Position numbers and translations under genes: made by a program. Below, one piece after another: positions 3,447 through 37,770 of a stretch of DNA of 49,563 nucleotides. Location of the stretch: IMG/VR virus record IMGVR_UViG_3300044984_001489, positions 1-49,563 of that record; one strand, written 5' to 3'. The stretch's first letter is position 1, and every line of letters starts with the position of its first letter. The notes under the pieces are model-generated. The model had not been told where the DNA came from. It was given only the letters and a program-made list of their open reading frames with translations, and made no database searches. The stretch is from a virus.

Positions 3447-3453
3447 ATAACTC

Positions 3454-3823: not shown

Positions 3824-3830
3824 CACGGCA

Positions 3831-4019: not shown

Positions 4020-4032
4020 AGGGCATAATCAT

Positions 4033-4361: not shown

Positions 4362-4394
4362 GACCGTGGGAGTCTTCATATACGTCTGTAGGCC

Positions 4395-4454
4395 TGTGGA
4401 TAACTTTTTCGCTAACCTGTGGATAACTTTGATGGCTCCCATGCCTGTGGATAA
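4395..4454 (+). promoter_or_regulatory. Three DnaA boxes
   Basis: TGTGGATAA, the reverse complement of the TTATCCACA consensus, occurs at 4395-4403, 4418-4426 and 4446-4454, each within CCTGTGGATAACT and in the same orientation. Host DnaA loading is the expected role. Confidence 0.75.
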
Positions 4455-4470
4455 CTCTGTTTTTTAGCTG

Positions 4471-4496
4471 TTTGTACCAAAACTCCTTGGTACAAA
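4471..4496. promoter_or_regulatory. Perfect inverted repeat of the TGTACCA motif (operator-like)
   Basis: TTTGTACCAA (4471-4480), six bases, TTGGTACAAA (4487-4496), followed by a further CTGGTACAA. It lies just upstream of the 4524 gene, so a dimeric protein bound here could control that gene. Confidence 0.6.
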
Positions 4497-4523
4497 CTGG
4501 TACAACTTTTTGAGGACATTGAC

Positions 4524-7518: not shown

Positions 7519-10500
7519 ATGTTGATTCATTTCCTTGGGGCATCCGTGCCCCTAACAAAGTCGTTCGCGCTTGAAAAGTCAGGCGCTATTACCAAAGACG
7601 CGTACCCACTCGTTGAAGCTGTTAGCAGCTTCGATGAAGACATCGCCACAGCAGCAGAGTTCTACGCTGCTATCAAGCAACACGCAGCTCAAGGGCATTG
7701 CCTACTCAAAGGCCTGCTCTCACGCCCTCTGATGAAAGAGTCAAGGCGTGGCACCACCAAGACAGACGATGCAAGCAGCTGGGTCTGTCTTGATTTCGAC
7801 AGGCACGAGTCGCCCAGTATCGACGACACACTCAACCGTATAGGTCTGGGGGACGTGTCCTACGTCCTCCAGTACAGCGCCAGTCAGGGTATGCCTGACA
7901 CCGAGGGCACACTCAGTGCCCACGTCTTCATGTTGCTGACTAAGCCCGTCAGCGCACCGGATCTCAAAGCGTGGCTCATGGACATCAACCTCAAGTACCT
8001 GCGCGACGACATTCACTTGTCTCGCAGCAAGATGATGTTGAGCTGGCCGTTGGACATCACCACTTGTCAGAACGACAAGCTGCTGTACATCGCACCACCG
8101 GGGTTCAGGGGGATGAAGGATCCACTAACGACACGCATCGAGCTGTGTCCAAAGAAGATCCCCGCTATGCCTGTTGACCGCATTGGCGGCGCCCACATCA
8201 ACGCACTCAAACTTGCAGAGAGGAAGTTGCTCAATGAACTACGCAAAGGAGAAGACCTCCCTTCCAGGCTTGCCAAGACCTCATGGGTCGGCACTTGCGA
8301 GGTACAGAACAAGCCAGACGTATGTAGTGTCACCGGGATTAAAGAGACTGGTGATTATGTACGTCTTAATATCAACGGCGGTGATAGCTGGGCATATTGG
8401 CATCATCGTGACAGCTTTGAGCTGATCCATGACTTCAAGGCAGATGCTTGGTACAAGACCAAGGAGCTGTTACCTGCGTACTACGCAGAACTCATGGAAG
8501 CGCGTCAAGCGCTGACTGCGACACCGACAGAGGAAGGTGACCTCATCCTTGCCTTCCGTGACATGAAGACCGCTGAGTATTTCAACGGTCTGTGGAACCC
8601 TAACACGGGTAATCTGGAGCTACATCGTGCGCGTAACGAAACGCAACTTGATCATTGGATGCGTAGTCACGGTCGTGTTATTGGTGACTACATCCCAGTG
8701 TGGGACATGCGGTACGACCCTCTGGCGAGCTACCGGGTGGATGCCGAGAATCACGTCATTAACACCTTCATTTCGAGCCCGTACTACGACCTCGAACCAG
8801 ACGCAAAAGCACGCTTCCCAAAAATCGAGTACCTCATTAAGCACCTGCTTGGAATCAATGACGGATCACCAGAAAATGCCAAGTTGTATGAGCATTTTAT
8901 TAACTGGTTTGCTGTCGTATTCAAGCGCAAAGGTACCGCCAACCACCCTATAACCGCGTGGGTGTTGCAAGGTATCCAGGGATGCTTGGCTGGTGACACA
9001 GAGATCAATTTTCATCAGCAAAAGAAATCAGGTCGCCCGGTCAGTATCAAAACAGCCTTTGAAAAATTCAACGGCACCTATCAACTCGGCACAGGAAAAG
9101 GCCGTACTTGGAATACAACCAAGCCTGTTTACGCACAGTGCGTTAAAGATGAATTCACTGTTGGCTACAGCGAAATTTTAAGCATCGTCGAATCAGGTGT
9201 AAAAATGATTTATCGCGTTGTGTCCAGCGATGGTGGTTTGATTCGTGTGACGCACAAACATCCATTTATGCGCCCAGACGGTTCGTTCACACCTCTGTGC
9301 GATTTAAAACTGGGTGATAAAGTTCTTCGTCGCGGTGATGCGCTAGCCCACATACGCCACCCTAAAGGTCGTAATAAAAAGCGCGTGACAATTTATTCAA
9401 TCCAACATCATCCACACGCTTGGCAACACATCATCAATGGCAAGAACTACAAGCGTTCTCACAAAGCACGTCTTGTTTGGGAAGCATGGATGAACAACAT
9501 GTCGCTGGATCAATTCATTGATGTTTTGCGTAACGATCCAATAACAGCGTCAAAACTTACTTATCTCAGTGATGATTTGATTGTTCACCATATTGATGAA
9601 GATTGCACCAACGATGAGCTTGGCAATTTAACAACCATCGACAAACTCGATCACGACAAGCATCACGCTAAAGAAACCGGTCTGGGTACTATTTTGACCA
9701 AAGAAGTGTCAATTGTTTCCATAACAGAAGATTGTGAGGAAATGACTTACGACATGACCATGAAAGCTCCGTATCACAACTATGTGGCCAATGGTTTCTG
9801 TGTGAAGAACACAGGCAAGGGCTCCTTGTTCAACAAGATCATCCTGCCGTTGTTTGGTCACCAGAACGTCTTCGCTGCACAGGTGCAGAACATCGAAGAA
9901 GGCTTCAACGGCTGGCTGCAAAACAAGCAGTTCATCATGGTCGAGGAAGTTGACGTTGACGACTTCAAAGACAAGGGGCGCATCAGCGCCAAACTCAAAC
10001 AGTACATCACTGAGCCCAAGGTGCCGTTTCGTCAGATGCGGCAGACAGCGGTGTGGACTGACAACTATGCGAGCTTCCTGTTCGCGTCCAATAAACCTCA
10101 GCCCGTGCACATCGAGGCTAGTGACCGTCGTTACAACTGCGGTAACTACCAGCGCTTACGGCTGAACTATCCGGGAGATGAAGCCATTGAAAACGAACTT
10201 GAAGCATTTGCGAGCTTCTTGCTCGCGCACAAAGCGGACGCAGAACGTGCAAATCAAATTATCCAAACAGAAGCAAGAACGCGCATCCAGCAACTTGGTG
10301 TCACGTCTATTGACGAAACTTGCCGCTGGATCGTAGAGGGTGATTTTGAAGCACTCTGGTACTCCATGCCCGACGAGCAGGTAGTGCGCGAGTCGCCTAT
10401 TACCAACAGCGTTACTGCTGACGCTACGGCTTATATCACCCTCATGAAGCGCTTGCTTCATGATGTGGTGAACGAGCCAAAGAACCGTCTTTCTCGTGAT

Positions 10501-10719
10501 GAGATGTACATCCTTATCCAGTATCACGTCGGGCAGCTGTCCTCTGCCCCCGGCAAGTTCACCAGCTTGCTGCGTCATCACGGGATCGACACCAAGCAGA
10601 TTCGCCGCAACAACCAAAAGACTTACGGTATTGACGTTGAGTGGCACGTCAGCGAAGAGTTTTACGAAGAAGTTCTTAAACCGAAACTTAAATTGAAATC
10701 AATGAGGATGGTCAAATGA
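7519..10719 (+). CDS. Primase (AEP-like)-SF3 helicase fusion, intein-containing
   Basis: 1066 aa before splicing, 790 after. The N-terminal domain carries archaeo-eukaryotic-primase-type motifs: LDFDRH (D92, D94) and SAHVFML (S133-x-H135), then SWPLDIT. The C-terminal domain is a superfamily 3/DUF5906-type helicase. Its Walker A is GIQG-TGKGS, split exactly by an intein at residues 489-764. Walker B-like FIMVEEVD and the FASNKPQP sensor segment follow. Such fusions prime and unwind phage DNA. It stands at the head of the replication genes and shares an ATGA overlap with the gene at 10716. It probably acts at the origin near 4.3 kb with the split PolB. Activity requires intein removal. Confidence 0.9.
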   Translation: MLIHFLGASVPLTKSFALEKSGAITKDAYPLVEAVSSFDEDIATAAEFYAAIKQHAAQGHCLLKGLLSRPLMKESRRGTTKTDDASSWVCLDFDRHESPSIDDTLNRIGLGDVSYVLQYSASQGMPDTEGTLSAHVFMLLTKPVSAPDLKAWLMDINLKYLRDDIHLSRSKMMLSWPLDITTCQNDKLLYIAPPGFRGMKDPLTTRIELCPKKIPAMPVDRIGGAHINALKLAERKLLNELRKGEDLPSRLAKTSWVGTCEVQNKPDVCSVTGIKETGDYVRLNINGGDSWAYWHHRDSFELIHDFKADAWYKTKELLPAYYAELMEARQALTATPTEEGDLILAFRDMKTAEYFNGLWNPNTGNLELHRARNETQLDHWMRSHGRVIGDYIPVWDMRYDPLASYRVDAENHVINTFISSPYYDLEPDAKARFPKIEYLIKHLLGINDGSPENAKLYEHFINWFAVVFKRKGTANHPITAWVLQGIQGCLAGDTEINFHQQKKSGRPVSIKTAFEKFNGTYQLGTGKGRTWNTTKPVYAQCVKDEFTVGYSEILSIVESGVKMIYRVVSSDGGLIRVTHKHPFMRPDGSFTPLCDLKLGDKVLRRGDALAHIRHPKGRNKKRVTIYSIQHHPHAWQHIINGKNYKRSHKARLVWEAWMNNMSLDQFIDVLRNDPITASKLTYLSDDLIVHHIDEDCTNDELGNLTTIDKLDHDKHHAKETGLGTILTKEVSIVSITEDCEEMTYDMTMKAPYHNYVANGFCVKNTGKGSLFNKIILPLFGHQNVFAAQVQNIEEGFNGWLQNKQFIMVEEVDVDDFKDKGRISAKLKQYITEPKVPFRQMRQTAVWTDNYASFLFASNKPQPVHIEASDRRYNCGNYQRLRLNYPGDEAIENELEAFASFLLAHKADAERANQIIQTEARTRIQQLGVTSIDETCRWIVEGDFEALWYSMPDEQVVRESPITNSVTADATAYITLMKRLLHDVVNEPKNRLSRDEMYILIQYHVGQLSSAPGKFTSLLRHHGIDTKQIRRNNQKTYGIDVEWHVSEEFYEEVLKPKLKLKSMRMVK
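8983..9810 (+). other. Intein (276 aa) with in-frame HNH nuclease in the helicase P-loop
   Basis: Starts CLAGDTEINF (Cys1, block A), block B RVTHKHPFMRPDG, and ends MKAPYHNYVANG then VKN with Asn276, with Thr as the +1 residue. Removal regenerates GIQGTGKGS. Between blocks B and F lies an HNH domain (LIVHHIDEDCTNDELGNLTTIDKL...HDKHH, about residues 687-716 of the precursor). The segment is visibly more AT-rich than the exteins, as expected for an acquired element. Confidence 0.92.
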
Positions 10720-15094: not shown

Positions 15095-15366
15095 GATTAC
15101 TTGAACGAGTACGTGGAAACGTAGAGGCTGCACCTTGGGTGTTGTCAGAGATTTCTGCACTTGAGAGGAAGATCGAATCTCAGGCGCGAGAGATTGAGTA
15201 CGCTAACAACATCATCCGCAACCAAGAGGCGGCGCTGGAGGAACTCCGCACTGCGCTTATCGCGGCCAAAGAGGTGATTGACGACTATACGGGCGACCCG
15301 CCAAAGGATGCGTATGCCAGATACAAAGAAGCACTCACCCGATGTAAGGAGGTTCTATGCACATAG
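15091..15366 (+). CDS. Coiled-coil protein upstream of PolB
   Basis: 91 aa. Residues ~20-65 form a heptad-rich coil (ISALERKIESQAREIEYANNIIRNQEAALEELRTAL). The C-terminus overlaps the polymerase start by 10 bases, so translation is probably coupled. Function unknown. Confidence 0.55.
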   Translation: MRLLERVRGNVEAAPWVLSEISALERKIESQAREIEYANNIIRNQEAALEELRTALIAAKEVIDDYTGDPPKDAYARYKEALTRCKEVLCT

Positions 15367-16448
15367 TTTTCGACACGGAAATTCTTGGCTTACGGAAACC
15401 CGTGTTTCTTACATGCGCTAAGGTCGTTGAGACCGGTGAGCGCTTTACCTTTTGGCACGATAAGCGTGGGCACACAGCCAAGCTTGAAAAGATGTTGACC
15501 CAAGGCCACACGTGGGTCAGCTTCAATGGTACGAACTTCGATCAACCTCTCGTTGCCGCCGCAGTCATGGGCTACGACGAAGAAGATCTGAAGAAGATAG
15601 CCACTGAGATCATCGACAACGAGATGCGTAGCTGGCAGACATACCGCCAGTACAACCTCGACTATCTGAACTATGACCATATTGATCTGATCGAAACCGC
15701 CCCCGGCGTGATGGTCTCACTTAAGACTTACGCTGGGCGCATGGCGTTCCCAAGCATGGTCGATATGCCGTTCCATCACGACGATGAGATCGACACGCCT
15801 AAGAAACGCAAGATCGTTGAGGACTACTGCCACAACGACTGTGACGTGACTGAGGCGTTGTTCAAGAAGCTGTCGACTGAGATCGAGCTGCGTGAAGTCA
15901 TGGGCGTTGAGTACAACCTCGACTTCCGTAGTAAGTCTGACGCACAGATTGCCGAAGCCATTCTCAAACAAGAAGTTGGCATCAGCAACCAAGACAAGCA
16001 GGTACCCAACTATGTTGAGTACAAAGCGCCGTCGTTCATCAAGACGCGCAGCAAGGCACTCAAAGCATTGATCTATGCATTCGAGAACGAGTGCTTCGCC
16101 ATCAATCGCGGCAACGGCTCGCCCGTTGAAGCTGAGTGGATGAAGGAACCGATCAAGGTTGGCAGTGGTTTGTATAAGGTCGGACTGGGTGGGCTACATA
16201 GCCAGCACGACAAACGGCTTCACCTCGAAGCGTCCGAGAGCCTCCTCCTCTCGGACTTCGACGTTGCTTCGTACTATCCGAACATCATGATGAAAGCAGG
16301 CCTAATCCCTCGCCTCGGCGGTAACAAGGGTCAGCTCTTCCTTGATGAGTACCGGATGATCTACGACCGGCGTATGGCAGCAAAACGTCGAGCAGGAGAA
16401 ATCAAACGACAGATTTCTGAAATCGAAAAGAGATTGGCCAATGGCTAG
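15357..16448 (+). CDS. Family B DNA polymerase, N-terminal fragment (exonuclease + motif A)
   Basis: 363 aa. 3'-5' exonuclease motifs: Exo I FDTE (D6, E8), Exo II FNGTNFD (N57-D62), Exo III YCHND (Y157-x3-D161). Polymerase motif A is DFDVASYYPN, with D302 as a metal ligand. The frame stops at 16448 after a charged helix (EIKRQISEIEKRL), directly where an AP2/HNH gene begins (16441). Motifs B and C are on the next polymerase ORF (16823), in another frame. No intein blocks are present, so the two parts must either assemble as separate chains or be joined at RNA level. Split PolB with a homing gene between the parts is known in some T4-like phages. Confidence 0.88.
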   Translation: MHIVFDTEILGLRKPVFLTCAKVVETGERFTFWHDKRGHTAKLEKMLTQGHTWVSFNGTNFDQPLVAAAVMGYDEEDLKKIATEIIDNEMRSWQTYRQYNLDYLNYDHIDLIETAPGVMVSLKTYAGRMAFPSMVDMPFHHDDEIDTPKKRKIVEDYCHNDCDVTEALFKKLSTEIELREVMGVEYNLDFRSKSDAQIAEAILKQEVGISNQDKQVPNYVEYKAPSFIKTRSKALKALIYAFENECFAINRGNGSPVEAEWMKEPIKVGSGLYKVGLGGLHSQHDKRLHLEASESLLLSDFDVASYYPNIMMKAGLIPRLGGNKGQLFLDEYRMIYDRRMAAKRRAGEIKRQISEIEKRLANG

Positions 16449-16911
16449 AACATACCACCCAAGAGGCGAACTCGTTGAAGGGTTTGCTCCGCGAAAACAT
16501 CCTTTGTATTACACATGGGCAAACATGCTTTCACGATGTAGTAATCCAAAAGCACCTAACTATGCTGATTATGGTGGTCGAGGGATCTTTGTCTGTCAGC
16601 GTTGGTTTCATTTCAAAAACTTTGTCGAAGACATGGGTATTAAACCAAGTGACAATCATTCTATTGACAGAATAAATAATGACTTGGGTTACTCACCCGC
16701 TAATTGCAAATGGTCGACTCGAAAAGAGCAGAACTCGAACAAGCGACTGTATCGAACTTCAGAAACTGGGTACGCAGGAATTCGTACTCGTGATGGTAAA
16801 TATCAAGTGCGGGTGACAATTCATGGCAAAAGAAAATCAATCGGTAACTACCAAACCATTCAAGAAGCTCTCAACGCAAGAGCGCCTTACATTGGAAAAA
16901 CAACTATCTGA
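16441..16911 (+). CDS. HNH endonuclease with AP2 domain, splitting the polymerase
   Basis: 156 aa. HNH core: YYTWANMLSRCSNP, NYADYGGRGIFVCQRW, then SIDRINNDLGYSPANCKWST with the HNH-type D-R-I-N-N-x-G-x-Y segment. The C-terminal part GYAGIRTRDGKYQVRVTIHGKRKSIGNYQTIQEA is an AP2 DNA-binding domain. It starts 8 bases before the end of the N-polymerase ORF and overlaps the start of the C-polymerase ORF (16823). AT-richer than its neighbours. Probably a homing endonuclease whose insertion split PolB. Confidence 0.9.
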   Translation: MARTYHPRGELVEGFAPRKHPLYYTWANMLSRCSNPKAPNYADYGGRGIFVCQRWFHFKNFVEDMGIKPSDNHSIDRINNDLGYSPANCKWSTRKEQNSNKRLYRTSETGYAGIRTRDGKYQVRVTIHGKRKSIGNYQTIQEALNARAPYIGKTTI

Positions 16912-17812
16912 ATTGAAGGCTGAGTATAAACAACAGCAAGGAATTTCAAATAGTCTAAAAATTACGCTTAATGGCACGTTCGGTAAGCTGGGTAGCATCT
17001 ACTGTGCGTTCTACAGCCCCGACCTGCTTATTGCTGTGACCATCACGGGTCAGCTCAACCTGCTCTGTGTCATCGACGAGTTGGAGAAGTTGAAGGATGT
17101 GCGTGTCGACTCAGCGAACACAGACGGTGTGCTGGTGGCTTACCCGCCTGCACAACGGCAGGCTGTGTTAGACGTGTTCGCTCGTAATGCCAAGCGCACG
17201 GGTTTCGAGTACGAAGAGACACCGTATCGCAAGATGGCTATGAAGGACGTGAACAACTACATAGCCATCACCACAGACGGCAAGGCTAAGACCAAAGGGC
17301 TGTATGCAGACGCAGGCCTTATGAAGAACCCAACGATGCAGGTCTGCTCTGACGCAGTCGTAGCTTACCTGCGTGACGGTGCAGACATTGCCGAGTACGT
17401 TCAGACCTGTGACAAGCCTGAAGACTTCATGGCGATACGCAACGTTAAGGGTGGTGGCGTGCAGCACAAGAAGATGGAGTTGGTCGACGACTGGGAACTA
17501 GCTGAAGACTACGGCACTAAGGAGAATTTGTGGCAATCACCCTCGACAGGCAAGTATGTAACCCGCAAGTCGCGCCCTAAACCGTTTGAAGCCTTCAGTG
17601 GCGGTGTACCCTTCGGTCGCGTCGCTCGGTGGTACATGACGACCCAGTCGATGCCACCCATCAGTTATATCGGATCAGGCAACAAGGTTCCCAAGACAGA
17701 AGGCGCGAGGGTCTGCATGACCTTGCCCGACACGCTACCGACTGATCTCGATATTGACTGGTACGTCGGTGAAGCACATCAAATTCTTTCAGATATTGGT
17801 GTTGTAATCTGA
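16823..17812 (+). CDS. Family B DNA polymerase, C-terminal fragment (motifs B and C)
   Basis: 329 aa from ATG 16823. Motif B is SLKITLNGTFGKLG (K46, N50, G51). Motif C is SANTDGVLV with D101 (NTDG in place of the usual DTDS). A C-terminal thumb-like region follows. The first ~35 residues (AKENQSVTTKPFKKLSTQERLTLEKQLSE) are encoded over the tail of the HNH gene and were probably acquired with it. KQLSEL repeats the pattern RQISEI near the end of the N fragment, so the junction seems partly duplicated. ATG is the only ATG before motif B; a TTG at 16914 is an alternative. Confidence 0.85.
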   Translation: MAKENQSVTTKPFKKLSTQERLTLEKQLSELKAEYKQQQGISNSLKITLNGTFGKLGSIYCAFYSPDLLIAVTITGQLNLLCVIDELEKLKDVRVDSANTDGVLVAYPPAQRQAVLDVFARNAKRTGFEYEETPYRKMAMKDVNNYIAITTDGKAKTKGLYADAGLMKNPTMQVCSDAVVAYLRDGADIAEYVQTCDKPEDFMAIRNVKGGGVQHKKMELVDDWELAEDYGTKENLWQSPSTGKYVTRKSRPKPFEAFSGGVPFGRVARWYMTTQSMPPISYIGSGNKVPKTEGARVCMTLPDTLPTDLDIDWYVGEAHQILSDIGVVI

Positions 17813-26057: not shown

Positions 26058-26632
26058 AAGTTACTATTCTTGAAGAAGCTGGGCACGACTTAGCGCTTCG
26101 TGGGATGGCCTATTCCTACAAGGATCGGAGCATTGCCCCTGATGAATGGTGGCAAGTACAGCGTGAACGTGCTTTGAAACGAGCACCTTTGCTTGCACCG
26201 ATGGATGCAGGGCACAACAAGTTTCTTCGCCAGATTGAACTATGGATGGACATCGAAGCCTGCCGTGCATGGTGGTCTGAGTTCGACACATACAAAGTGG
26301 GAACCGTTGCCAACTCAGAAAGCACAATGCACACCTTGAGCAAGCGACCCCCGACGCCGTGGGATTTCGAGGAAGGAACAGACTTTGAAGTCATCAACGC
26401 TTTCTCGCGTGTCTGGTTGAACGCAAAGGGTGATGTCACAACTTTGAAAATGAATCTGCCCGAAGGCTTTCTTCAGCGACGCATGGTCACGATGAACTAC
26501 GCCGTGTTGCGCAACATCATTGATCAGCGTGAAGCTCATCGTTTGAAGTGGTGGGGTGTATTCATTGACGCTGTTCGTCAACAAGTTGCCCATCCTGAGT
26601 ATTTGACTCTGATGAACACTAAGGAGAACTGA
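26054..26632 (+). CDS. Unknown 192-aa protein, faint ThyX resemblance
   Basis: Helical protein with FLRQIELWMDIEACRAWWSEFDTYKVGTVANSESTMHTLSKR and MNYAVLRNIIDQREAHRLKWWGVFIDAVRQQV. The S-x-S-T-x-R spacing after an aromatic-rich strand, and the later R-x-A-H-R/W helix, recall flavin-dependent thymidylate synthase, but the RHR motif is not present. With dCMP deaminase downstream a dTMP role would make sense; not proven. Confidence 0.5.
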   Translation: MKVTILEEAGHDLALRGMAYSYKDRSIAPDEWWQVQRERALKRAPLLAPMDAGHNKFLRQIELWMDIEACRAWWSEFDTYKVGTVANSESTMHTLSKRPPTPWDFEEGTDFEVINAFSRVWLNAKGDVTTLKMNLPEGFLQRRMVTMNYAVLRNIIDQREAHRLKWWGVFIDAVRQQVAHPEYLTLMNTKEN

Positions 26633-26635
26633 AAG

Positions 26636-26881
26636 ATGGACCTCGAAACTAAAGAAGGTTTCGAGGCCGCTAAGCAATGGACAGCAGACTTCATATCCCG
26701 CCTGAACGAAGGTGGGCTGTGGGGTGTGCCCCGTAGCAACAGCGGCTATCGAATCTGGAATGAAACAAAGAAGTACGAGTGCGTTGTCGGTGGTGAAGAG
26801 TGCATCGAACGAGTGCTCGAAGCCCTTGGCTACGAGAGCGTTGGTGGTAAGACGCTTGAGATTGAAGGGGTGCCGGTATGA
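26636..26881 (+). CDS. Unknown small protein
   Basis: 81 aa with AAGGAGAACTGAAAG upstream. Acidic, two Cys (KKYECVVGGEECIERVLEALGY), ends in an ATGA overlap with the DNA ligase. Family not recognised. Confidence 0.55.
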   Translation: MDLETKEGFEAAKQWTADFISRLNEGGLWGVPRSNSGYRIWNETKKYECVVGGEECIERVLEALGYESVGGKTLEIEGVPV

Positions 26882-27977: not shown

Positions 27978-28446
27978 TAAAGATTCGTCGACAAAAGTTG
28001 GCGCACTCATTGTTGGTGCGTCAAACGAAGTACGAAGCATGGGCTACAACGGCTCGCCGCGTGGATGCTCAGCAGACGAAGGGTTGGACGGTCGAACCGT
28101 TCGACCAGAGAAGTATTTTTGGTTCAGTCACGCTGAAGCCAATGCAATTACCAACGCAGCTCGTGTTGGCACTCCTCTGGATGGCAGTAGCATCGTTGTT
28201 ACTCATTTTCCTTGCATGGACTGTGCTCGATTAATCGTCCAGTCAGGGATAAAGCACGTTGTCACATACGAGGTTGACCATGCGTTTTACGACCGTTGGA
28301 AAGAACACATCGTTCGCGCCGAAAAGCTCTTTGACGAGTGCGGCGTCGAGCTAACGATTTTGCCACCCTCATCCGATCAACTTGCTGATAACGAGGCGAC
28401 GGGCTGCGGGAACAGCGAGGGTGGCAAATCACCACAGTCGTGCTGA
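27925..28446 (+). CDS. dCMP deaminase
   Basis: 173 aa. Zinc site H69-A-E71 (SHAEANAI) and P96-C97-x2-C100 (FPCMDCARLI); YNGSPRG substrate-loop typical of deoxycytidylate deaminases. Converts dCMP to dUMP for dTMP synthesis. It overlaps the HicA-like gene by 53 bases, and its 3' end overlaps the convergent integrase gene by 18 bases. Confidence 0.93.
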   Translation: MNKLTKYMGIADAVAQLSKDSSTKVGALIVGASNEVRSMGYNGSPRGCSADEGLDGRTVRPEKYFWFSHAEANAITNAARVGTPLDGSSIVVTHFPCMDCARLIVQSGIKHVVTYEVDHAFYDRWKEHIVRAEKLFDECGVELTILPPSSDQLADNEATGCGNSEGGKSPQSC

Positions 28447-29466
28447 CAGGGTGCTGCCGCGCAGGTTCGCATAGCGTTGCAGCATCCTGAAGCCCTTGTG
28501 TCCGGTAATCGACGCCACTTCCAGATCAGACAGGTTCGTCCTTTCGTAGATTCTTGAAGTGGCTTCATGTCGACAGTCATGAAATCGCAAGTCTGGACAA
28601 CCTGCCTGCTCAAAGCGCTTGGCAAACTTGTGCGACAGCATGTGGCCAACGCGCTCTTTTTCTTCTTGACCACCACCAGACCACCACGCCGAGAACACAT
28701 AGTCCTGCGTCAAGTCCCAAGCCTGTAGCTTTGCCAGCAGCACGCTGGATATGGGTACCTGTCTTCGGGTACCGTTCTTGGACTGGTGGACAAATATTGT
28801 GCGCCGCAGCAAATCAACGTCGGCGCATTTAAGGGTGAACATCTCACCCAACCGCATGGCCGTTTCAAGGGCCATATCGAACAAGAGACCCTCCTCTTTT
28901 GACAACAGGGTCTTGCGAATAGCCCCTTCCTCTGTCTGTTCTAGCCTCCTGTTTCGCTCACCTGACCATAGCTTGTTCCTATCGAAACCTGCGCTCCCAT
29001 AGCCACGTGGCAGCATACGCAACGGGTTTGCCGTCAACGACAACATATTGCGCCGCATGGCCCAGTCCACCACCCGTGCGAGGCCGCTAACGCGCTTGGT
29101 AATCGTGCTGGGCGCCTTGCCAGCAGCGTGAAAGCTCTCAACCCAGCCTTCCACCCACCCGTAGTCAAACAGGGCCACCTTGACCCCCTCCACGTCCTTA
29201 CGAATGGCTGGCAGCAGGTCAGCCTCACTGCGACACATCCTTACAGTGGCCCCATACAGGTCACACAACGCACACAGCGTGCCCACAGCGCCCTCGCGCA
29301 TCTCAACGGGTACGACACCCTTCCCAAGCAGCTCCTCGACCCGTGTAGCGTACCTGTCGCCTTCCTCCTCAGAGTCAAACGTGAGGTACACAGGGTTGGG
29401 TAGTACCCCTTTGCGCTTGAAAACATACTCCCAAGTCCCGTTGGACCGCAGTCTTTTGCCTGCCAT
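28429..29466 (-). CDS. int: Tyrosine recombinase (phage integrase)
   Basis: 345 aa from ATG 29466, preceded by GAGGTG eight bases away (an alternative GTG lies at 29475). Catalytic set: R205 (TAMRLGEM), K230 (QSKNGTRRQVP), H296-x2-R299 (HDCRHEAT), H323 (TGHKGFRM), Y332 (LQRYANLR). N-terminal Arm-like part (WEYVFKRKGVLPNPVYLTFDSEEEGDRYA) followed by a SAM-like core-binding domain. Should integrate the phage at a tRNA-His gene using the attP core at 29656-29707. Convergent with dCMP deaminase, overlapping by 18 bases. Confidence 0.93.
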   Translation of the reverse strand: MAGKRLRSNGTWEYVFKRKGVLPNPVYLTFDSEEEGDRYATRVEELLGKGVVPVEMREGAVGTLCALCDLYGATVRMCRSEADLLPAIRKDVEGVKVALFDYGWVEGWVESFHAAGKAPSTITKRVSGLARVVDWAMRRNMLSLTANPLRMLPRGYGSAGFDRNKLWSGERNRRLEQTEEGAIRKTLLSKEEGLLFDMALETAMRLGEMFTLKCADVDLLRRTIFVHQSKNGTRRQVPISSVLLAKLQAWDLTQDYVFSAWWSGGGQEEKERVGHMLSHKFAKRFEQAGCPDLRFHDCRHEATSRIYERTNLSDLEVASITGHKGFRMLQRYANLRGSTLSARLW

Positions 29467-29570
29467 ATCAGTCACCTCGCTTATTAATCAGATTTTCAAT
29501 GTACCCGCGTTGGTTTTCCGGGGCCAGTTGGTTGAACCAGCGCTCTTACGGACTCATATACAAAAATATA

Positions 29571-29585
29571 GCGTTTTGTCAGAGT
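29571..29585 (-). repeat. ACTCTGA motif, copy 6 (half degenerate)
   Basis: ACTCTGACAAAACGC about 105 bases upstream of the integrase start, oriented with it. CTGACA could serve as -35 with TATATG 16 bp downstream. Confidence 0.45.
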
Positions 29586-29610
29586 TCATGAGATTCGCAT
29601 AGAATACAAA

Positions 29611-29643
29611 GAAACCCTGAAAGCCTTGCGGCTACAGGGTTTC
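29611..29643. terminator. Strong hairpin beside attP
   Basis: GAAACCCTG (29611-29619) and CAGGGTTTC (29635-29643) enclose AGCC/GGCT with a TTGC loop, and a TTTCTT tract follows. A related CAGGGTTT copy lies at 29723-29730. May insulate integrase from outside transcription or be integrase-binding arms. Confidence 0.55.
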
Positions 29644-29655
29644 AAGGTTTCTTAC

Positions 29656-29707
29656 TGGGGCGACTGATGGGGCTCGAACCCACGACAACCGGAATCACAA
29701 TCCGGTG
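29656..29707 (-). other. attP core: 3' half of a tRNA-His (GTG) gene
   Basis: On the minus strand: anticodon stem-loop CCGGA-TTGTGAT-TCCGG (anticodon GTG), TTGTC variable loop, T-arm GTGGG-TTCGAGC-CCCAT, acceptor 3' strand CAGTCGC, discriminator C and CCA. The 5' acceptor and D-arm are absent, so this is not a working tRNA but the identity block with which a phage rebuilds the host gene after integration. The C discriminator is the tRNA-His hallmark. Located 190 bp upstream of int. Confidence 0.8.
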
Positions 29708-29820
29708 AGACCCTTGCTACGACAGGGTTTGAGAGGTGTCCGACCAACTCAACTGCTCTTTTTGAGTCTTATTTGACGATTGTGGCGTTTACACCAACTG
29801 CTGAGCAGTTATCAAAAAAG

Positions 29821-29840
29821 TTGTACCAATGTACCAATGT
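29821..29840 (+). repeat. Two TGTACCAATG copies near attP
   Basis: TTGTACCAATGTACCAATG; with GGAAAACACTGGTACAAATTAT at ~29914-29935 it closely resembles the 4216-4245 segment of the origin region. Confidence 0.65.
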
Positions 29841-29985
29841 TTTCCATGTTCGTATAGGAAACACACACTACTATTACCCTGAAAACACACAGTCGTTGTC
29901 GCCATCAGGAATTAGGAAAACACTGGTACAAATTATGTTATATACATGTAAAGTACCTTCAAACTTAGATATAGCTTAAAACCGA

Positions 29986-30035
29986 GCTGTACCAAAGCTG
30001 TACCAAAGCTGTACCAAAGCTGTACCAGTTGTACC
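29986..30035 (+). repeat. TGTACCA iteron array, plus-oriented
   Basis: GCTGTACCAAA at 29986, 29997 and 30008, then GCTGTACCAG and TTGTACCGAT: five units at 10-11 bp period, ending in the same TGTACCGATTT as the origin array. Together with 30201-30240 it brackets ~165 bp of palindromes. Confidence 0.8.
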
Positions 30036-30052
30036 GATTTTTTTCTAATATA

Positions 30053-30133
30053 GCCTATTATTTAGGCAAACGTACGTTTAGTGACAGAAGTTGTTACGTT
30101 TCGTTTAAGAATGTGAACGCCTAAAAATTAGGC
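30053..30133. repeat. Two GCCTA..TAGGC palindromes and an AAACGTACGTTT palindrome
   Basis: GCCTA/TAGGC at 30053-30067 and GCCTAA/TTAGGC at 30119-30133 flank a perfect 12-bp palindrome, AAACGTACGTTT (30068-30079). Operator- or iteron-like; no gene here. Confidence 0.5.
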
Positions 30134-30139
30134 AGTTTT

Positions 30140-30195
30140 CTTACACGAACCTTACGTGGAACAACAAATCGTGTTTCACGTAAGTTTCGTGTAAG
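30140..30195. repeat. 19-bp inverted repeat with one mismatch
   Basis: CTTACACGAACCTTACGTG (30140-30158) and its complement (30177-30195, one mismatch) with an 18-base spacer. Too long for a simple operator; a cruciform, origin or partition site is conceivable. There is no T tract, so terminator use for the leftward late genes is unlikely. Confidence 0.6.
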
Positions 30196-30200
30196 TATTG

Positions 30201-30240
30201 TGGTACAGCTTGGTACAGCTTTGGTACAACTTCGGTACAA
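30201..30240 (-). repeat. TGTACCA iteron array, minus-oriented
   Basis: TGGTACAGCT, TGGTACAGCTT, TGGTACAACTT and CGGTACAAG: four units facing the 29986-30035 array, just downstream of the last late gene's stop. Confidence 0.75.
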
Positions 30241-30261
30241 GAGATAACTTGTACTTATGAC

Positions 30262-33200
30262 CTATGCGTTTCCAAGCCTTTCAAGCCTGCGTAGCATACT
30301 GCCTCCCGGTAGCGCGCCCAGACCCTCGCCTATCACTGTGTGGTCACGCATGGCCATGAACTCACCAAACGGTACTGACAGGATGTTCTGGAGCTGATCC
30401 ACGGTTGGCCCTGCCAAGGTAGCAGGATCGAACGCTGCGCCTGCCTTGCCGAAGTTTAAGCCCGGTATCTCAGACACGTCCACCAAGTTGCCCAGCATCA
30501 TCTGTGGCACGCCCAGCACCCCGGCGCGGCCAAAGCCATACTGGAGGTACCCGTCAAGACCACCTTTCATCCAAGGTGGCTCCTCACCGGGGATCAGCAT
30601 CTCCTTGATAGCCCCGGCAGCGATGGCGATAGGCATGTAGCCCAGACCCATGGCCATCACCGGGCGGTAGTTGCCTAGACGGGCTTGGTCGGCAGCGTTC
30701 TTCATCATCACGCGATGGAAGCTGTAGCTGTAGCTCTTGAGCTGAGCAAACACGGCGTAGTGTGGGTCGCTCATCCAGATCGTGCGGTGAGCTGCTGTTG
30801 GCGCCGCTACAGCGGTGAGCACCCAGCGTGTTACAGCGGCTTGGTTGGCAGCGTTCTTCTCAAGGTTGCCGTCAGGGCCAAACTTGATGTTTTTCGGGTC
30901 GAATCCTTTGCCAAACAGGTCTTCCATGCGCGACACAGCCGCTTTGTCGTTGGTGTCGATACCGTTCTTCGCCCACCCGCTAATGATGCGCACCGCCACC
31001 TGTGTGGCAGCGGCGCGTACACCACGGTTCCAGCCCACCATACCGTTGTACTTGAACAGCTTGTCGCTCAAGACCTTGGCCTTACCTGACATGAAGGGTG
31101 AGCCTTGGGCCTGTGCGGTGCTCTCAAGGTACGCCCCTGAGTCGACAGTACCCCAGAACTCAGCGTCGGCCACCGCCGCGCTTGGATCTTTCTTGTCAAA
31201 GATCGTGTTGCGAATCTCGCGGATGCCTTCAACAAACCCTGTCCAAGCGTCCTTAGCCTCGCCACCGTTGACCACCAGACCGACAACGTCTTGGAAGTTG
31301 GTGAACAAGCTCGTCGCCATCAAGCGGAACGACTGGTAGGTGACAATCCAGCTACTGACAGCCCGTGCGTTGGGTGAAATCTCACGACCCAGCGTACCCT
31401 CAAGCGCCTGAATAGCCTTGAAGCTGTTTTCAAGCTTACCCATCGCCTTGAGCAGTGCGGCGTCGTGCTTCTCTTGACCAACACCTGCAACGTGCATGTC
31501 TTGACCGACAGAGCGCAGGGTTGGGAATGGCTCGCTGAAGTCGTCACCCACAGCAGCCTTCTGTTTCGACCACTTCTTACGAGCTGCCTCCAGACCCTTT
31601 TCAGCCTGTTCAACCAAGGCGTCACCACCTAGCTCGAACAACACAGCCTTGTCAGCCCCCTCAGCGATCTTCCCGCCGTCCGGGCCGAAGCGACTCTGGT
31701 ACTCACCGCGCTTGACGATACTGTGCGCGTAGGTCGTCATGATCGAGGTGAGGTCTTTCTCCTTGTACTTGTCGAACACGTCCTTGTCCAGCCAGTTCAG
31801 CTCGCGCTTGTTGACCGCGCTAGACGCCGGGGTGATGCCCAGACCGCTGTTGCTCTCGGAGATTTCAATGTGGCCGTTGGAAGCCAGCAACCGTGTGGCG
31901 ATAGCGTCGGCAACCATCTCAGCAGTGATGGTCTGAAGGTTCAGCTTGGCCATGACCTTACCTGAGTCTTTGAACTCTTGCTCAGCCCGGTCGAACTCAG
32001 CCCGTGCCGCAGTGCCCTTTTCAGGCAGCTTGTCAGCTTTGACTTCCTTGTTCGCTTCGTCGGCGATGTGCTGAAGCTCACGAGAGTGGTGCTTGAGCAG
32101 GCTCTCTTTGAACCCAGCCATGTCACCCATCAGCGCGTCGACGGACCAGACTTGCGGCAGGTAGTTCTTGCGCAGGGGGATGTCCTCCCACACACCTTTC
32201 ATGCCGGTCTCAGAGTCTATACGATCCATGTTCAAGCGCTTGACGCCCTTCTCGGCCATGTAACCAGCCATCTCGCTGTAGAACGCGTTGATCTTGGCGA
32301 CCAGCTCCTTGGCCACACGGTCGGTTGGCTCCGTTTCAGTTGACATCGCCTTACGCGCCATCTCGATGTCTTCTGGGCTGTAGCCGTCGAGGATGTTCTC
32401 TACTTTGTGCACCCAGTGGCTCGTAGCCTGACGGAGTCCGTCAGAGTATGAGCCGTAGGAAGACCCGACCTTACGCATGGCTGTACCGATCTTCTGGTGG
32501 AAGCCCCGCGCTATGTCGACCATGTGCTTGTTGTTCGTCGCGTCCATCATGGCTTCGTTCGAGAACACCAGCTTACCGGCAGCGTTGGCAAAGTTCTGGA
32601 AGGTCTCACCTACCCGCTCAACAGCAGCGTTGTGGGCCTCAGTGTCCTTGTTGATAGCGGCCACCACAGCTTGACGGGTGTCAGCGTTTGCCACCGCGCC
32701 GTCAGAGAACTGACGCATGAGCCGCTCGGCATGACCTGCCTCCAGCTGCTCACGGCTCATGGCTTCAACCTCCTTGCGGAAGGTCTCGCTGAATACAGCA
32801 GCGACGCGCTTGAGGCCGTTCTTGATCATCTGGAAGATGCTCTTCGTCTCAGGCCCAATCTTCAACGCACCGGCCTGCCAGAACTGATACATGAACGCAG
32901 CTGCTTCTTCGTGGTTGGCCAGCTGCTTGATAGCCTCTGGGTGACCGTCAAGCAGACGCTCCAGCTTGCGCTGGATGATTGGGTTCATGGCGGCACGCTT
33001 CATCACATCGACCGAGGCCTTGCCACCGTTCTTCTCCAAGATGTTGACAAACTCATGGAAGGACTCATGGAAGGCGGCACCGAGCACGTCGCCGTTGAGC
33101 GCTAGCTTGATGGTGTTCTTTACCTGCCCCGGCGTCCATTCACCAGAGCTGTCGGTCATGCGCTTGAACAGCGTGGTGATGTTGTCACCCAGCGCCTTGA

Positions 33201-36200
33201 GGATGTGCTCCTTGGCAGCAGCTACTTGCTCGTGGACCTTGCCCTTGGCTTGGTTCTTGGGTTGCTGGGTGGATTGTTTGCCACCCTCAAGCGACCGCAA
33301 GCGCTCGTAGTTCTCAGCGCGTGCCTTGTTTAGACCCGCCAGAGCCTCTGCTTTCGACAGACCGTGCCGCTTAGCGTAAGCCCCTAGCTTTGTATTGCTA
33401 CCAAGTATGCTGTCGATCTTGTCGACAGTGGCGCGTGCTTCTAGCAATCCTTCGGTGGATTTGCTCGCAGCCACTCCGGTTTTAGATGATCCGGTGTTCC
33501 CAGTTCCTTGGGCCTGCCCCACGACGGATATGGCGCTCTCCTCGCCTTGATCATTCGCAGCGTTGCCGCTATTTCCTCCGGGTCTCCCGACAGGAGAGCC
33601 TTGTCCACTTCCTCTTGCGTTGTTAGCATTTGCTTCCTCCAAAGAGGAAATCTTACCGCTGATCAGATCGGCTGTGTTACCCAACCTGACTTTTAGTTCT
33701 GCCGCCTCCGCTTTATCGAGTGTGTACAGCGAGGCCAGTTTGTCGACCGACAACTCTGCAAGGCCGATGGTGTGCACTTCTTCGTAACGATCCCCGACGT
33801 ACTTTGTTGTCTTGCTAACAACATCGTGGTCACCCTTTTTCTGCGTACTTGGGACGTACTCAGCGATTTTGTTCATCCGCGTGGTACCAAGAATGGCTAT
33901 GTCAAAAATCTCACGATTTTCTTGCGATAGCGTTGCGCGCCCACTCATCAAAGAGGCCACGCTCTTTTGCAGCGCAGCCACGATACGGTCTTTTACATTC
34001 TCCAGTTTGTCCTCAGCCTTCGGCTGGGCAGATTCCTTCTTGGCGGTAGACACTTCATGTGTGCTTGGCAAGACATGGGGGTCGACCTTAGTGCCTTCGC
34101 GTGAGCGCGTACTGCCCGGACCACCGTAACCAGCGCCAGCTGCGTCAGCACCTAAACCAATGCGTGCTCCGTCCGGTCCGCGCTCAACTTCCTTCTTACC
34201 CTTCGTGCTCGACTTTTGATACTTGACGAGGTGTTCCATCTCTTCAGCTCGAAGCGCTTTCAACGTGTCTGACTGCGCCTTGCTCAACGCTGGGCCATCT
34301 CCGGTGACAGCCTCGCGGTACAGCTTCTCAAGACGAGCCAGTTGCTTCTCCTTTGGAAACTTAACAAGCAGCTGCCCGGTGTACTCTGTGTCCGACACTG
34401 ATAGATCACCGTCCTCAGCTTCAATGCGACCCTGCGCCTCGCTCGGTGCAGGTACGCCTTCTTTCTGACCCTTGCGACGCATCTCAGTGGTCTTCTCGGT
34501 GTCGTACTCTGTCGTCGGGCGAGCGAAGGTAATGTCCTTCTTCGACATTGGCGTGCCACCAAAGTCGTCAGGCGACCCTTGCCACTTGTTACGTTCCTTG
34601 CGGTAAAACTGTAGTACGGCTGGTGCGCCTTTTTTTAAGGCTTCGTAAATTTTGTAAGCACGACCAGAACTCGTTGTCTCGCGCTGAGCAAGTTCCAACA
34701 GCGCCTGAACACGCTCCTTGTGGTTCTCGGCGAAGCCAATACCAAATTCGGTCGGCTTCTCCTCACGACGCTCAATGTCAGCCTGTGTCTTGGCGTCACC
34801 GACAGTATGTTGACGACCGAGCAGCATCTCCTTGGGGAGCCGTTCGAGGTTCTCAACCCACTGAAGCGGTTGACCCGGAGCAGTGCGGTAGCCAATGCGA
34901 CTGGTGAAGTTTCCACCCTCGGCCAGCATCAAGTCGGTCAGTGCTGACATGACCAGATCAGAGCTGCCTAGCGCACCACGGCGCTTGCCTTCGAGCGTGG
35001 TGCCTGTTGGACCGTCCTGATTCTCGAAGTTACCTGTCGGGAACACGCCGCCGTCTTTACCTTTGGCGCGTGTGCCGTTCTCTGTGAAGATGCCCTGCTT
35101 GCGCAGGCTGTCGGTACTGACAGGGAAGTGTGTCACGCCCTTGCTACCGTTGCGCTCAAGGAACAACACGCCGTTCTGCGCGGTGAAGGTCTCAGGTTTG
35201 GCGTCCTTCGGGTTCCACTTGAACGAGTCAATGTCTTGGATGTTGTGCCGTGAGTCGCCGCTGTCAGGCTGTGTCACCTCAAGGTAGCGGAACTGCTTGT
35301 CGATTTGACCGAGTAGGGCCGCGCGCTGACGTTTCGACAAGTCGCCAATGTCGATTGTGCCTTCAGAGAATCCTTTGATAAGGGTTTCATATTTGCCTTG
35401 ATGGCTAAGCTTCGGCCCGAAGCTCTCAAGCAGGTCGTAGCCTGCTTGCTCGATGGCTGCTGCGTCGTTGTTCAGGTCTTTCTTGGTGCGCGACCAGATG
35501 CCAGCGTCGACAACGCTGTTGCCCAGCTCGCTTGAGTGCTGGGCCTTCACAGCCTCGTACTTCTCGATACCTTTGTCAAAGCCGAGGTTGAACGGGATAC
35601 CAACGCGACCTTTTGGGTTCGTAAAGCCGACGATCTTCGGCCCTTTGATCTCACTAACACTGGCACCTGCACCGTACTTGTTGACGATCAGCTCACCGTC
35701 TTCGTCGAACTGCTGCTCAGGCACGACGTTACCATCAGCGTCGATCTCGACTTGATCCTTACCACCGCCAGTCGCCTTCGACACGAGCTTCTTGTGCTCA
35801 CCCGTGTCAATGTAGGCATTCATCACGTTGTGCAGGCGTTCCTCAGTGCCGAAGAAGTTGTCGATCAAGCCCTGCTTGACCTTCGCCGACATCCCCTCCT
35901 GTACGACGGTCTTCATCATAGGCACGAGCTTCTTCACCGCGCCGTCCACATCCTTGACACCGTGTAGCGCGATGTCGCTCAGGTTGTTCTTCAGAGCGCT
36001 TTTGATTATCTGCTCTTTGTTCGAGGCGAAGGTGATGAGCGCCTCAATGTTCTTAGCCGCCTCTGGCCGGTTCTCCACCAGCCCGTTGCGCGTGGCTAGG
36101 CCGTAGGCTTTCTTAAACAGGGAAGCGCTACCTTCACCGAAACGCTCAACGATGGCGCCGACAGCCTGCTGGTGATCTTCCATACCGCTGTTGATCCAGT

Positions 36201-37770
36201 TCAACATACCTGCGAGCTGGATCTTGTTGTGCTCACCGTTTGTCGCCTTAATGATCTTCTCGTCGACACCCTGCTTGACCATGATGTCTGTCAGCGTATT
36301 TATCTTCTGCTGCTGAGCTTCAGGCTTGAGTAGCTCAGACTCAAGGTACATGCGGTCTGAGGGACGCATCTCAGACTTCTTCGAGTTCTGCCCCAACCCC
36401 GTGAGCAGCGCGTCGGTCTCTTTCTCAGCGACCTTGTCGTTCTGCGTCTGGTGCAGCTTCGTCTGAAACTCAACCGCGTCGATCTTACCAGCGGCGTACT
36501 GCGAGGCCAGTGACTTCTCAGCCTCTGTGCTGTCGCGCCCAGCCTTGAGAATCGTCGCAGCGTCATCTTTGAGCTTGTTCTCGTGGTGAGCGTTGAAGCT
36601 CTGATCGTCCATCTGATTCTCTTCGTCGCTTAGCGGCGATGTGCTCTTCAGGTCAGACTTACCGGCCAGCGTGGCTTGAATTTGCTCAAGGCGGCCTTGG
36701 TCAATCTCGTCTTGCGTCAGACCCTTGGACTTCAGCTCGCGCTCGTCGAAGTAGTTATCTACCTTCGCCTTCAGCGTGCCAGCCTTGGCAGCAAGGTCGA
36801 CACCCGCGTCGAGCACCGTGCCTAGTGGGTCGGAGGCAACGTCGCGCGCGGTGTCTGTGACCTTGTCGACACCCCTGCCTAGCATGCCGTAACCCGCGTC
36901 AGCACCTGCGCCGACAGCACCCATACCGCCGCCTGCGATGGCACCGGCAGCGGCCTCGTTGAGAGCCTGCTTGTAATCGTAGTTGGTCAGGTCGTCCTGA
37001 TTCAGCCAGTTCTGTGCAGACTGCCCGGTTAGACTCTGAGCACCTTCTGTAGCGCCTTCTGTCAGCATGTCTTGGCCGACGCGCTTGGCCATACCGGCTT
37101 TGGTCAGCTGCTTCGCGCCCATACCCGTCAGACTCTTGACGACGCCGAACGGCACAGCCGCTTCGAGTGCCCCGCCAACAATAGCGTTGCCCATACCTGC
37201 GTTGCCAATGTCTTCGTAGCTACGCGTGGCACGGATGTTCTCGTCCTGCATCGCTTGGGCGACTGTCTCGTCGTACATCTGGTTGCCGCCGACCAGCGCT
37301 GAACCAATCCGCGCGCCAGCCAGAGCCCCCGGCGCAGCGCCGACTCCACCCATGAGCGCACCACCGACGCCGCCGATGGCCGCGCCAGCTAAGCCGCCGA
37401 GGGCTGAGGGTACCGACGAGCGGATGCCACCCAGCGCACCACCGACGTAGTCGATGGCAGAACCGAGACCTCGCACATCGCTCGCGTCACGAACAGTCGG
37501 CGCCCACTGCTGCGCCTGTGCGCCGAGGTCGCGCGCTTGCTGCTCGTAGATCAGACCGCCTTCAGTGTCGCCAGCAGCATGGGCTGAACGAGCTTTTGCC
37601 CAGAGCGTGTTGGCTTCGTCACCTAACCCTGCTGAAGTCCAGCCTCGACCAAACTGCGACGAGGCGTTGACCTGTCCAGCAAGATCAGCATCAAGGTTGG
37701 CTTGAGTGTATAGCCCAGCTGCGTCGTTAGATAGGGTGAGCGCTCTCTGTGGTGCGAGTTCAAGTGGCAT
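30262..37770 (-). CDS. 2502-aa internal virion / polyvalent protein with a HExxH metalloprotease-like motif
   Basis: Very large virion-associated protein, last of the late operon. Residues ~100-170 and ~270-295 are Gly/Ala-rich hydrophobic glycine-zipper segments (LGGLAGAAIGGVGGALMGG) suited to crossing membranes during DNA ejection. The middle is long, charged and helical. HESFH at 1568-1572, with N-H-E-E at 1619-1622 downstream, is a HExxH zinc-peptidase signature like the MPTase domain of phage polyvalent proteins. No lysozyme or RNA-polymerase motif was recognised. Size and position match podovirus ejection proteins. A 3-bp gap separates it from the 920-aa gene. An ACTCTGA motif lies inside at 32431-32447. 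Confidence 0.72.
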   Translation of the reverse strand: MPLELAPQRALTLSNDAAGLYTQANLDADLAGQVNASSQFGRGWTSAGLGDEANTLWAKARSAHAAGDTEGGLIYEQQARDLGAQAQQWAPTVRDASDVRGLGSAIDYVGGALGGIRSSVPSALGGLAGAAIGGVGGALMGGVGAAPGALAGARIGSALVGGNQMYDETVAQAMQDENIRATRSYEDIGNAGMGNAIVGGALEAAVPFGVVKSLTGMGAKQLTKAGMAKRVGQDMLTEGATEGAQSLTGQSAQNWLNQDDLTNYDYKQALNEAAAGAIAGGGMGAVGAGADAGYGMLGRGVDKVTDTARDVASDPLGTVLDAGVDLAAKAGTLKAKVDNYFDERELKSKGLTQDEIDQGRLEQIQATLAGKSDLKSTSPLSDEENQMDDQSFNAHHENKLKDDAATILKAGRDSTEAEKSLASQYAAGKIDAVEFQTKLHQTQNDKVAEKETDALLTGLGQNSKKSEMRPSDRMYLESELLKPEAQQQKINTLTDIMVKQGVDEKIIKATNGEHNKIQLAGMLNWINSGMEDHQQAVGAIVERFGEGSASLFKKAYGLATRNGLVENRPEAAKNIEALITFASNKEQIIKSALKNNLSDIALHGVKDVDGAVKKLVPMMKTVVQEGMSAKVKQGLIDNFFGTEERLHNVMNAYIDTGEHKKLVSKATGGGKDQVEIDADGNVVPEQQFDEDGELIVNKYGAGASVSEIKGPKIVGFTNPKGRVGIPFNLGFDKGIEKYEAVKAQHSSELGNSVVDAGIWSRTKKDLNNDAAAIEQAGYDLLESFGPKLSHQGKYETLIKGFSEGTIDIGDLSKRQRAALLGQIDKQFRYLEVTQPDSGDSRHNIQDIDSFKWNPKDAKPETFTAQNGVLFLERNGSKGVTHFPVSTDSLRKQGIFTENGTRAKGKDGGVFPTGNFENQDGPTGTTLEGKRRGALGSSDLVMSALTDLMLAEGGNFTSRIGYRTAPGQPLQWVENLERLPKEMLLGRQHTVGDAKTQADIERREEKPTEFGIGFAENHKERVQALLELAQRETTSSGRAYKIYEALKKGAPAVLQFYRKERNKWQGSPDDFGGTPMSKKDITFARPTTEYDTEKTTEMRRKGQKEGVPAPSEAQGRIEAEDGDLSVSDTEYTGQLLVKFPKEKQLARLEKLYREAVTGDGPALSKAQSDTLKALRAEEMEHLVKYQKSSTKGKKEVERGPDGARIGLGADAAGAGYGGPGSTRSREGTKVDPHVLPSTHEVSTAKKESAQPKAEDKLENVKDRIVAALQKSVASLMSGRATLSQENREIFDIAILGTTRMNKIAEYVPSTQKKGDHDVVSKTTKYVGDRYEEVHTIGLAELSVDKLASLYTLDKAEAAELKVRLGNTADLISGKISSLEEANANNARGSGQGSPVGRPGGNSGNAANDQGEESAISVVGQAQGTGNTGSSKTGVAASKSTEGLLEARATVDKIDSILGSNTKLGAYAKRHGLSKAEALAGLNKARAENYERLRSLEGGKQSTQQPKNQAKGKVHEQVAAAKEHILKALGDNITTLFKRMTDSSGEWTPGQVKNTIKLALNGDVLGAAFHESFHEFVNILEKNGGKASVDVMKRAAMNPIIQRKLERLLDGHPEAIKQLANHEEAAAFMYQFWQAGALKIGPETKSIFQMIKNGLKRVAAVFSETFRKEVEAMSREQLEAGHAERLMRQFSDGAVANADTRQAVVAAINKDTEAHNAAVERVGETFQNFANAAGKLVFSNEAMMDATNNKHMVDIARGFHQKIGTAMRKVGSSYGSYSDGLRQATSHWVHKVENILDGYSPEDIEMARKAMSTETEPTDRVAKELVAKINAFYSEMAGYMAEKGVKRLNMDRIDSETGMKGVWEDIPLRKNYLPQVWSVDALMGDMAGFKESLLKHHSRELQHIADEANKEVKADKLPEKGTAARAEFDRAEQEFKDSGKVMAKLNLQTITAEMVADAIATRLLASNGHIEISESNSGLGITPASSAVNKRELNWLDKDVFDKYKEKDLTSIMTTYAHSIVKRGEYQSRFGPDGGKIAEGADKAVLFELGGDALVEQAEKGLEAARKKWSKQKAAVGDDFSEPFPTLRSVGQDMHVAGVGQEKHDAALLKAMGKLENSFKAIQALEGTLGREISPNARAVSSWIVTYQSFRLMATSLFTNFQDVVGLVVNGGEAKDAWTGFVEGIREIRNTIFDKKDPSAAVADAEFWGTVDSGAYLESTAQAQGSPFMSGKAKVLSDKLFKYNGMVGWNRGVRAAATQVAVRIISGWAKNGIDTNDKAAVSRMEDLFGKGFDPKNIKFGPDGNLEKNAANQAAVTRWVLTAVAAPTAAHRTIWMSDPHYAVFAQLKSYSYSFHRVMMKNAADQARLGNYRPVMAMGLGYMPIAIAAGAIKEMLIPGEEPPWMKGGLDGYLQYGFGRAGVLGVPQMMLGNLVDVSEIPGLNFGKAGAAFDPATLAGPTVDQLQNILSVPFGEFMAMRDHTVIGEGLGALPGGSMLRRLERLGNA
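32431..32447 (-). repeat. ACTCTGA motif, copy 7 (inside the 2502-aa gene)
   Basis: ACTCTGACGGACTCCGT, one mismatch in each half; same orientation as transcription. Confidence 0.45.

Follow-up and report, generated by a model that had tools for sequence, protein, structure and literature searches.

Dual replication origins of phages are well described for SPP1 and seldom reported elsewhere. The SPP1 origins oriL and oriR each combine direct repeats with an AT-rich unwinding element, and both are bound by gp38 (PMC6316719). One origin-binding protein, gp38 (G38P), serves both origins, and oriR, which lies in the late region, is a possible fork barrier that triggers the switch from theta to sigma replication (PMC6316719, PMC3485210). 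In a second kind of system, SaPI Rep and Cch2 bind iterons through their C-terminal domain (PMC7581432). For the clade considered here, no description of origins was found in the open-licence literature. We analyzed the virus record IMGVR_UViG_3300044984_001489 over its 49,563 nt (the window, meaning the whole stretch at its full length), with attention to two intergenic regions that carry arrays of the motif TGTACC, region A (3824-4523) and region B (29476-30261). The window is a fragment of a phage genome, because TerL is truncated at base 1 and a second gene extends past the right end. We propose, with a probability of about 0.72, that A and B are two initiator-bound copies of one iteron-type replication-origin element. 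The arrays would then be a variant of the dual-origin type known from SPP1.

The distribution of the motif over the window was determined. TGTACCA occurs 20 times, and 18 of these copies are inside the two regions: 8 in A (0.23 expected from dinucleotide shuffles) and 10 in B (0.20 expected), while the maxima among 2000 shuffles were 3 and 2, respectively. The other two copies are spread over the remaining 48 kb, so the motif scan proposed in an earlier note on this DNA showed the concentration that the note had anticipated. The note had described the repeat family by the exact pattern TTTGTACCAA; the family is real, but this pattern is not its best motif, the invariant core being TGTACC, mostly followed by A. 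The two regions contain 23 exact TGTACC sites (10 in A; 12 in B, plus a lone site at 29500+). In both regions an AT-rich stretch is paired with oriented arrays of these sites. An exact search of viral contigs for the tandem unit gave no match, and in a DNA-level search of the phage collection tRNA-His segments were the only matches.

In region B the sites are 29822+, 29830+, 29925-, 29988+, 29999+, 30010+, 30021+, 30030+, 30202-, 30212-, 30223- and 30234-. The first two, 8 bp apart on the plus strand (29821-29837), recur inverted at 4226/4234 in region A. The minus site 29925 is part of a segment (GGAAAACACTGGTACAAATTATGT / GGAAAACACTGGTACAAATTAT, 29915-29938) common to positions 4216-4245 of region A. 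It is followed by an AT-rich stretch (29922-29981; 75% AT over 60 bp, the 99.9th percentile of the window being 73%), which is a proposed unwinding element, and by an array of five plus sites (29985-30040) that ends on TGTACCGATTT. The earlier note had placed a plus array at 29986-30035 opposite a minus array, with palindromes between them. Both arrays are present with a spacing of 9-11 bp, the first at 29988-30035 and the second consisting of four minus sites (30201-30240), and the palindromes were found at 30053-30068 (GCCTATTATTTAGGC) and 30119-30134 (GCCTAAAAATTAGGC), together with a long inverted repeat at 30140-30195 (arms of 24 nt, 30140-30163/30172-30195; z-score -6.9). The segments that the note gave as shared also recur, GGAAAACACTGGTACA at 4216 and 29915 and TGTACCGATTT at 4351 and 30030, and all of its coordinates check out. 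AATTAT comes after GGAAAACACTGGTACA at both copies, 8 bp further on at region A. No exact DnaA box is present in region B. The very strong hairpin 30140-30195 lies just past the stop of the giant virion gene and downstream of it, without a clear U-run on the transcript strand; it could be a terminator, a single-strand initiation site or an operator.

Region A has the sites 4077+, 4226-, 4234-, 4319+, 4330+, 4341+, 4351+, 4473+, 4489- and 4499-. After an outlying plus site (TGTACCGATA, 4077-4086) comes the segment GGAAAACACTGGTACATTGGTACAAATTAT (4216-4245), common to region B, with the minus sites 4226 and 4234 at a distance of 8 bp. The proposed unwinding element of this region (4241-4300) has 82% AT, the highest 60-bp value of the window, and is followed by an array of four plus sites (4317-4361), again ending on TGTACCGATTT. 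Three exact DnaA boxes (TGTGGATAA, minus strand) start at 4395, 4418 and 4446, so that 3 of the 4 exact boxes in the window fall within 60 bp (4395-4454). The last three sites close the region (4471-4506).

The two-locus layout was then compared with that of relatives. In the window, rightward early and replication genes occupy about 3 to 28.4 kb and are followed by leftward late genes, the last of which is the giant virion gene (30262-37770, minus strand); its 3′ end marks locus B across relatives. By primase-helicase, the closest named phages are the KPP25-like Pseudomonas phages (37% identity). In KPP25, the complete genome of a lytic Pseudomonas phage (Kochitakasuvirus), copies of the motif TGTYACGA occupy 26394-26818 and 58257-58535, and the internal spacings of 31, 46 and 8 bp are equal at the two loci. 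One of these loci is upstream of the early genes and the other immediately follows the giant virion gene, matching the window; the twin loci are syntenic, and primase-helicase, RecB-type exonuclease, helicase and giant virion gene are homologous. KPP25 differs from the window in the motif itself, in the number of exact DnaA boxes near A (one, against three in the window), and in its integrase, none being annotated and none being found by tblastn with the window integrase. A dense 9-bp tandem repeat of the AGCCCAGC family at KPP25 29863-30120 is probably coding and is unrelated to the arrays.

Further relatives were collected by alignment of the helicase, which returned many IMG/VR contigs, most of which encode both the giant protein and the primase; full-length sequences were obtained for 21. 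Within each of 21 genomes (19 contigs together with KPP25 and the window), a query was compared by blastn with the genome's own sequence. The query was the 700 bp upstream of the primase, except in KPP25 and the window, where region A was taken. The best second copy was 0-312 bp beyond the giant stop in 10 of the 21 (E 3e-4 to 4e-77), namely the window, KPP25, G021, G018, G026, G019, G014, G008, G009 and G003, where G014 was counted after setting aside the contig's own terminal repeat. None of 1,260 random 700-bp control queries landed there. Loci from bacterial assemblies were fetched afterwards, and those with both genes on one contig were counted; a second copy near the giant stop was seen in 4 of 5, at 45 bp past it in Herminiimonas (L240), overlapping it in Janthinobacterium (L242), and 5 bp and 527 bp past it in L244 and L243. 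Within a genome the two copies can be nearly the same, with identities over 162-173 bp of 96% in G009, 92% in G019 and 91% in G008. Between genomes the motif varies (TTACACT, TTATACT, TTCCAATC, TGTTCCA, TTGTAAG, TGTYACGA, TGTACCA). In most relatives having an array, locus A is directly upstream of the primase-helicase gene. A motif that is the same at both loci of a genome and turns over between genomes is the pattern that one shared DNA-binding protein would leave, and the suggestion of the earlier note that one protein reads both sites is very probable on this indirect evidence. Moreover, because relatives keep both loci in place though the repeat changes, an origin pair, rather than integration machinery, is the most likely explanation, and the second origin that the note had listed among its options is the best reading of B.

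When shared 7-mers were compared with those of random pairs, only the window, KPP25 and G009 reached significance, since this measure overlooks degenerate sites; blastn had the higher sensitivity. G001 (L034), the first relative, obtained via the integrase, has the integrase and parts of the structural region in common with the window, but its primase is not shared; a single array of another motif is present, GGTATGGAA in both orientations (4475-4712), with no clear second locus. No comparable array was seen in 8P, USP_18 and phiA008; PCA1 does have clusters.

We were particularly interested in the protein that might read the sites. The DUF5906 primase-helicase (7519-10719, plus strand) is the proposed initiator. 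Its core matches DUF5906 (PF19263, E 8.1e-18), and it also matches the C-terminal region of the NrS-1 primase (E 5.6e-37). Features expected of a D5/SaPI-type initiator were looked for. The DUF5906/SF3-like helicase core is present, and an iteron array beside the initiator gene is found in most relatives with an array and 3 kb upstream in the window. The C-terminal domain (10366-10716, plus strand), which is fast-evolving, is predicted to have winged-helix topology with a pLDDT of 84, but its matches to solved structures are weak (Z 3.8). It is the proposed iteron-binding domain; a Foldseek search confined to the winged helix returned nothing at E 0.001. The winged helix closest to that of the window is from G037 (37%), and the TGTACCA motif is also upstream of the G037 primase. 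Over the relatives, covariation of motif and winged helix (mean residual +3.1 vs -0.4) is too weak to name the binder. The earlier note had offered the 4524 product, for which there is no KPP25 homologue (tblastn, E 1e-3) and no match in PHROGs, Pfam or NCBIfam. The primase-helicase is a better candidate than the 4524 product, and it is probably the initiator that reads both arrays, an identity we infer from its domains and its place beside the arrays of relatives.

The primase-helicase of the window carries an intein with HNH matches inside its Walker A motif (8983-9810, plus strand; about residues 489-764), and the G006 primase frame is similar in length (1076 aa), perhaps also with an insertion. 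In G012, G014, G026, G009 and G002 the primase match contains in-frame TGA (one TAG), which could reflect recoding, a broken frame, an error of assembly or a match that extends beyond the stop. TerL (2-2032, minus strand) has an intein-like insertion, inside which lies an Endonuclease VII ORF (486-962, minus strand; 158 aa, PF02945) on the same strand but in another reading frame. The halves of a DNA polymerase of family phrog_1252 are separate ORFs (15357-17812, plus strand) with the ORF 16441-16911 between them, which suggests that an interrupting element splits the polymerase.

How the paired loci may work can be outlined as follows. One phage initiator would bind the TGTACC clusters at both A and B, and the AT-rich stretch beside the oriented sites would melt. 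The initiator would be the D5/SaPI-like primase-helicase, making contact through its C-terminal winged helix. The main (early) origin would be A, which has three DnaA boxes and adjoins the early genes. For B, where the late gene block ends, we infer a role as second origin or as a loaded fork barrier like SPP1 oriR, where bound initiator would stall or restart forks and so might help replication to pass from the circle-to-circle (theta) to the concatemer (sigma) mode ahead of packaging. A DNA loop between the sites, also raised in the earlier note, is possible.

Several observations weigh against paired origins. In about half of the relatives blastn finds no B copy, and in G037 only A is present. 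The exact DnaA boxes next to array A belong to the window and were not seen in relatives. In the window and KPP25, A sits 3-12 kb upstream of the primase gene and not adjacent to it. The extremes of GC skew do not mark A and B, although skew is confounded by gene orientation. The similarity of the winged helix to solved structures is low, and the covariation given above is weak and confounded by relatedness, with G023 as a counterexample. Moreover, no replication assay for the clade was found in the literature searched.

The best surviving alternative, which we nevertheless consider rather unlikely, is that one phage transcription regulator uses the arrays as operators; as a repressor or activator, it would act from A on the early operon and from B on an integrase or late-region promoter. 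The rightward early genes are indeed downstream of A, the genes downstream of B in the window and KPP25 are on the strand of the giant gene, and a motif common to two control regions is what phage operators typically show. However, no sigma-70-like promoter above shuffle expectation was found in region A or B, and in G009, G008 and G019 the ORFs beyond B are mostly opposite to the giant gene (by crude ORF lists), so that B would be at a convergent junction with no promoter there to control. Both copies also keep the AT-rich centre, and the similarity of about 170 bp in some genomes exceeds what operators need.

The P4 primase-helicase alpha binds both its origin and crr. By analogy, only A would fire, and B would be a cis-acting replication enhancer or copy-control site that the initiator loops to A. 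We regard this as improbable, more so than operators. The window protein is a DUF5906 primase-helicase and has a weak match to the P4 family, but with 17 bits it is far below the curated NCBIfam cut-off of the P4 alpha model TIGR01613 (108.7 bits). In addition, B keeps an AT-rich stretch of its own, needless for a pure enhancer, and the loci are 24-40 kb apart.

Integration has also to be considered. A tyrosine integrase (28429-29475, minus strand) and a tRNA-His 3′ segment (29649-29703, minus strand) are located between the early/replication block and the late block. The segment matches tRNA-His 3′ ends in many phage and bacterial records, and ARAGORN found no complete tRNA. Because this match stands alongside a tyrosine integrase, 29649-29703 is soundly taken as the probable attP core, and the attP that the earlier note had put beside region B is borne out to that extent. 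The same kind of tRNA-His 3′ segment is near the giant gene end in G037 (L236, about 3,450-3,500), and the two phages may use the same integration site. The link that the note drew between replication control and integration fails, because array B is present in KPP25, G014 and G021 with no integrase found (PF00589 is absent from the 67.5 kb of G014 and the 61 kb of G021); the layout is thus independent of integrase. That B provides arm-type sites of attP for integrase or excisionase, and that the same protein binds A in a secondary, regulatory function, is very improbable and largely refuted, for although B begins about 120 bp from the att core with the integrase gene alongside, the array is not confined to phages with an integrase, in G008, G019 and other genomes 2-4 kb separate the integrase from B, the arrays of the window all lie to one side of the core and reach 540 bp from it, with the lone site 29500 on the integrase side, and array A equals array B, yet there is no att site at A.

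Paired origins, if confirmed, would have wider consequences. The rule that a second copy stands just past the giant virion gene predicts an origin pair across a large, mostly uncultured clade and in environmental bacterial-assembly loci, and KPP25, as an isolated lytic phage, makes the prediction directly testable. The pairs of motif and initiator form a natural series for how D5/SaPI-type primase-helicases choose their sites, and the twin loci give a way to ask whether a second origin drives the theta-to-sigma switch. We tentatively extend the proposal, at odds we would put somewhat below even, to a clade of temperate and lytic phages of 60-70 kb that keeps two homogenised origins on opposite genome arms, evolving in concert, in which iteron and initiator DNA-binding domain change together and one primase-helicase sets replication start, fork arrest and concatemer switch.

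Among known systems, P4 resembles the window in that its primase-helicase reads two separate cis regions (alpha, with ori1 and crr), and differs by family, given the low TIGR01613 score. The NrS-1 primase (PDB 6k9c/6k9e) is the best sequence and structure match of the C-terminal half of the primase-helicase, and the window protein differs from it in carrying an intein. SaPI Rep and SCCmec Cch2 share short direct repeats beside the initiator gene and a helicase with a C-terminal DNA-binding domain (PMC7581432), and the SaPI5 primase-helicase is among the structural matches. The SaPI and SCC origins are single and downstream of the gene, whereas the window element lies upstream and has a second copy at another place in the genome. 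As for the gp38/gp39/DnaB-type set of SPP1, the scan of window proteins gave the DUF5906 primase-helicase, and no search aimed at gp38 was made. The SPP1 initiator works with a loader and a DnaB-type helicase, whereas the likely initiator of the window is a fused primase-helicase. Moreover, SPP1 oriL is inside gene 38 and its origins are 12-13 kb apart, whereas A is intergenic and the spacing of the paired loci considered here is about 25-32 kb.
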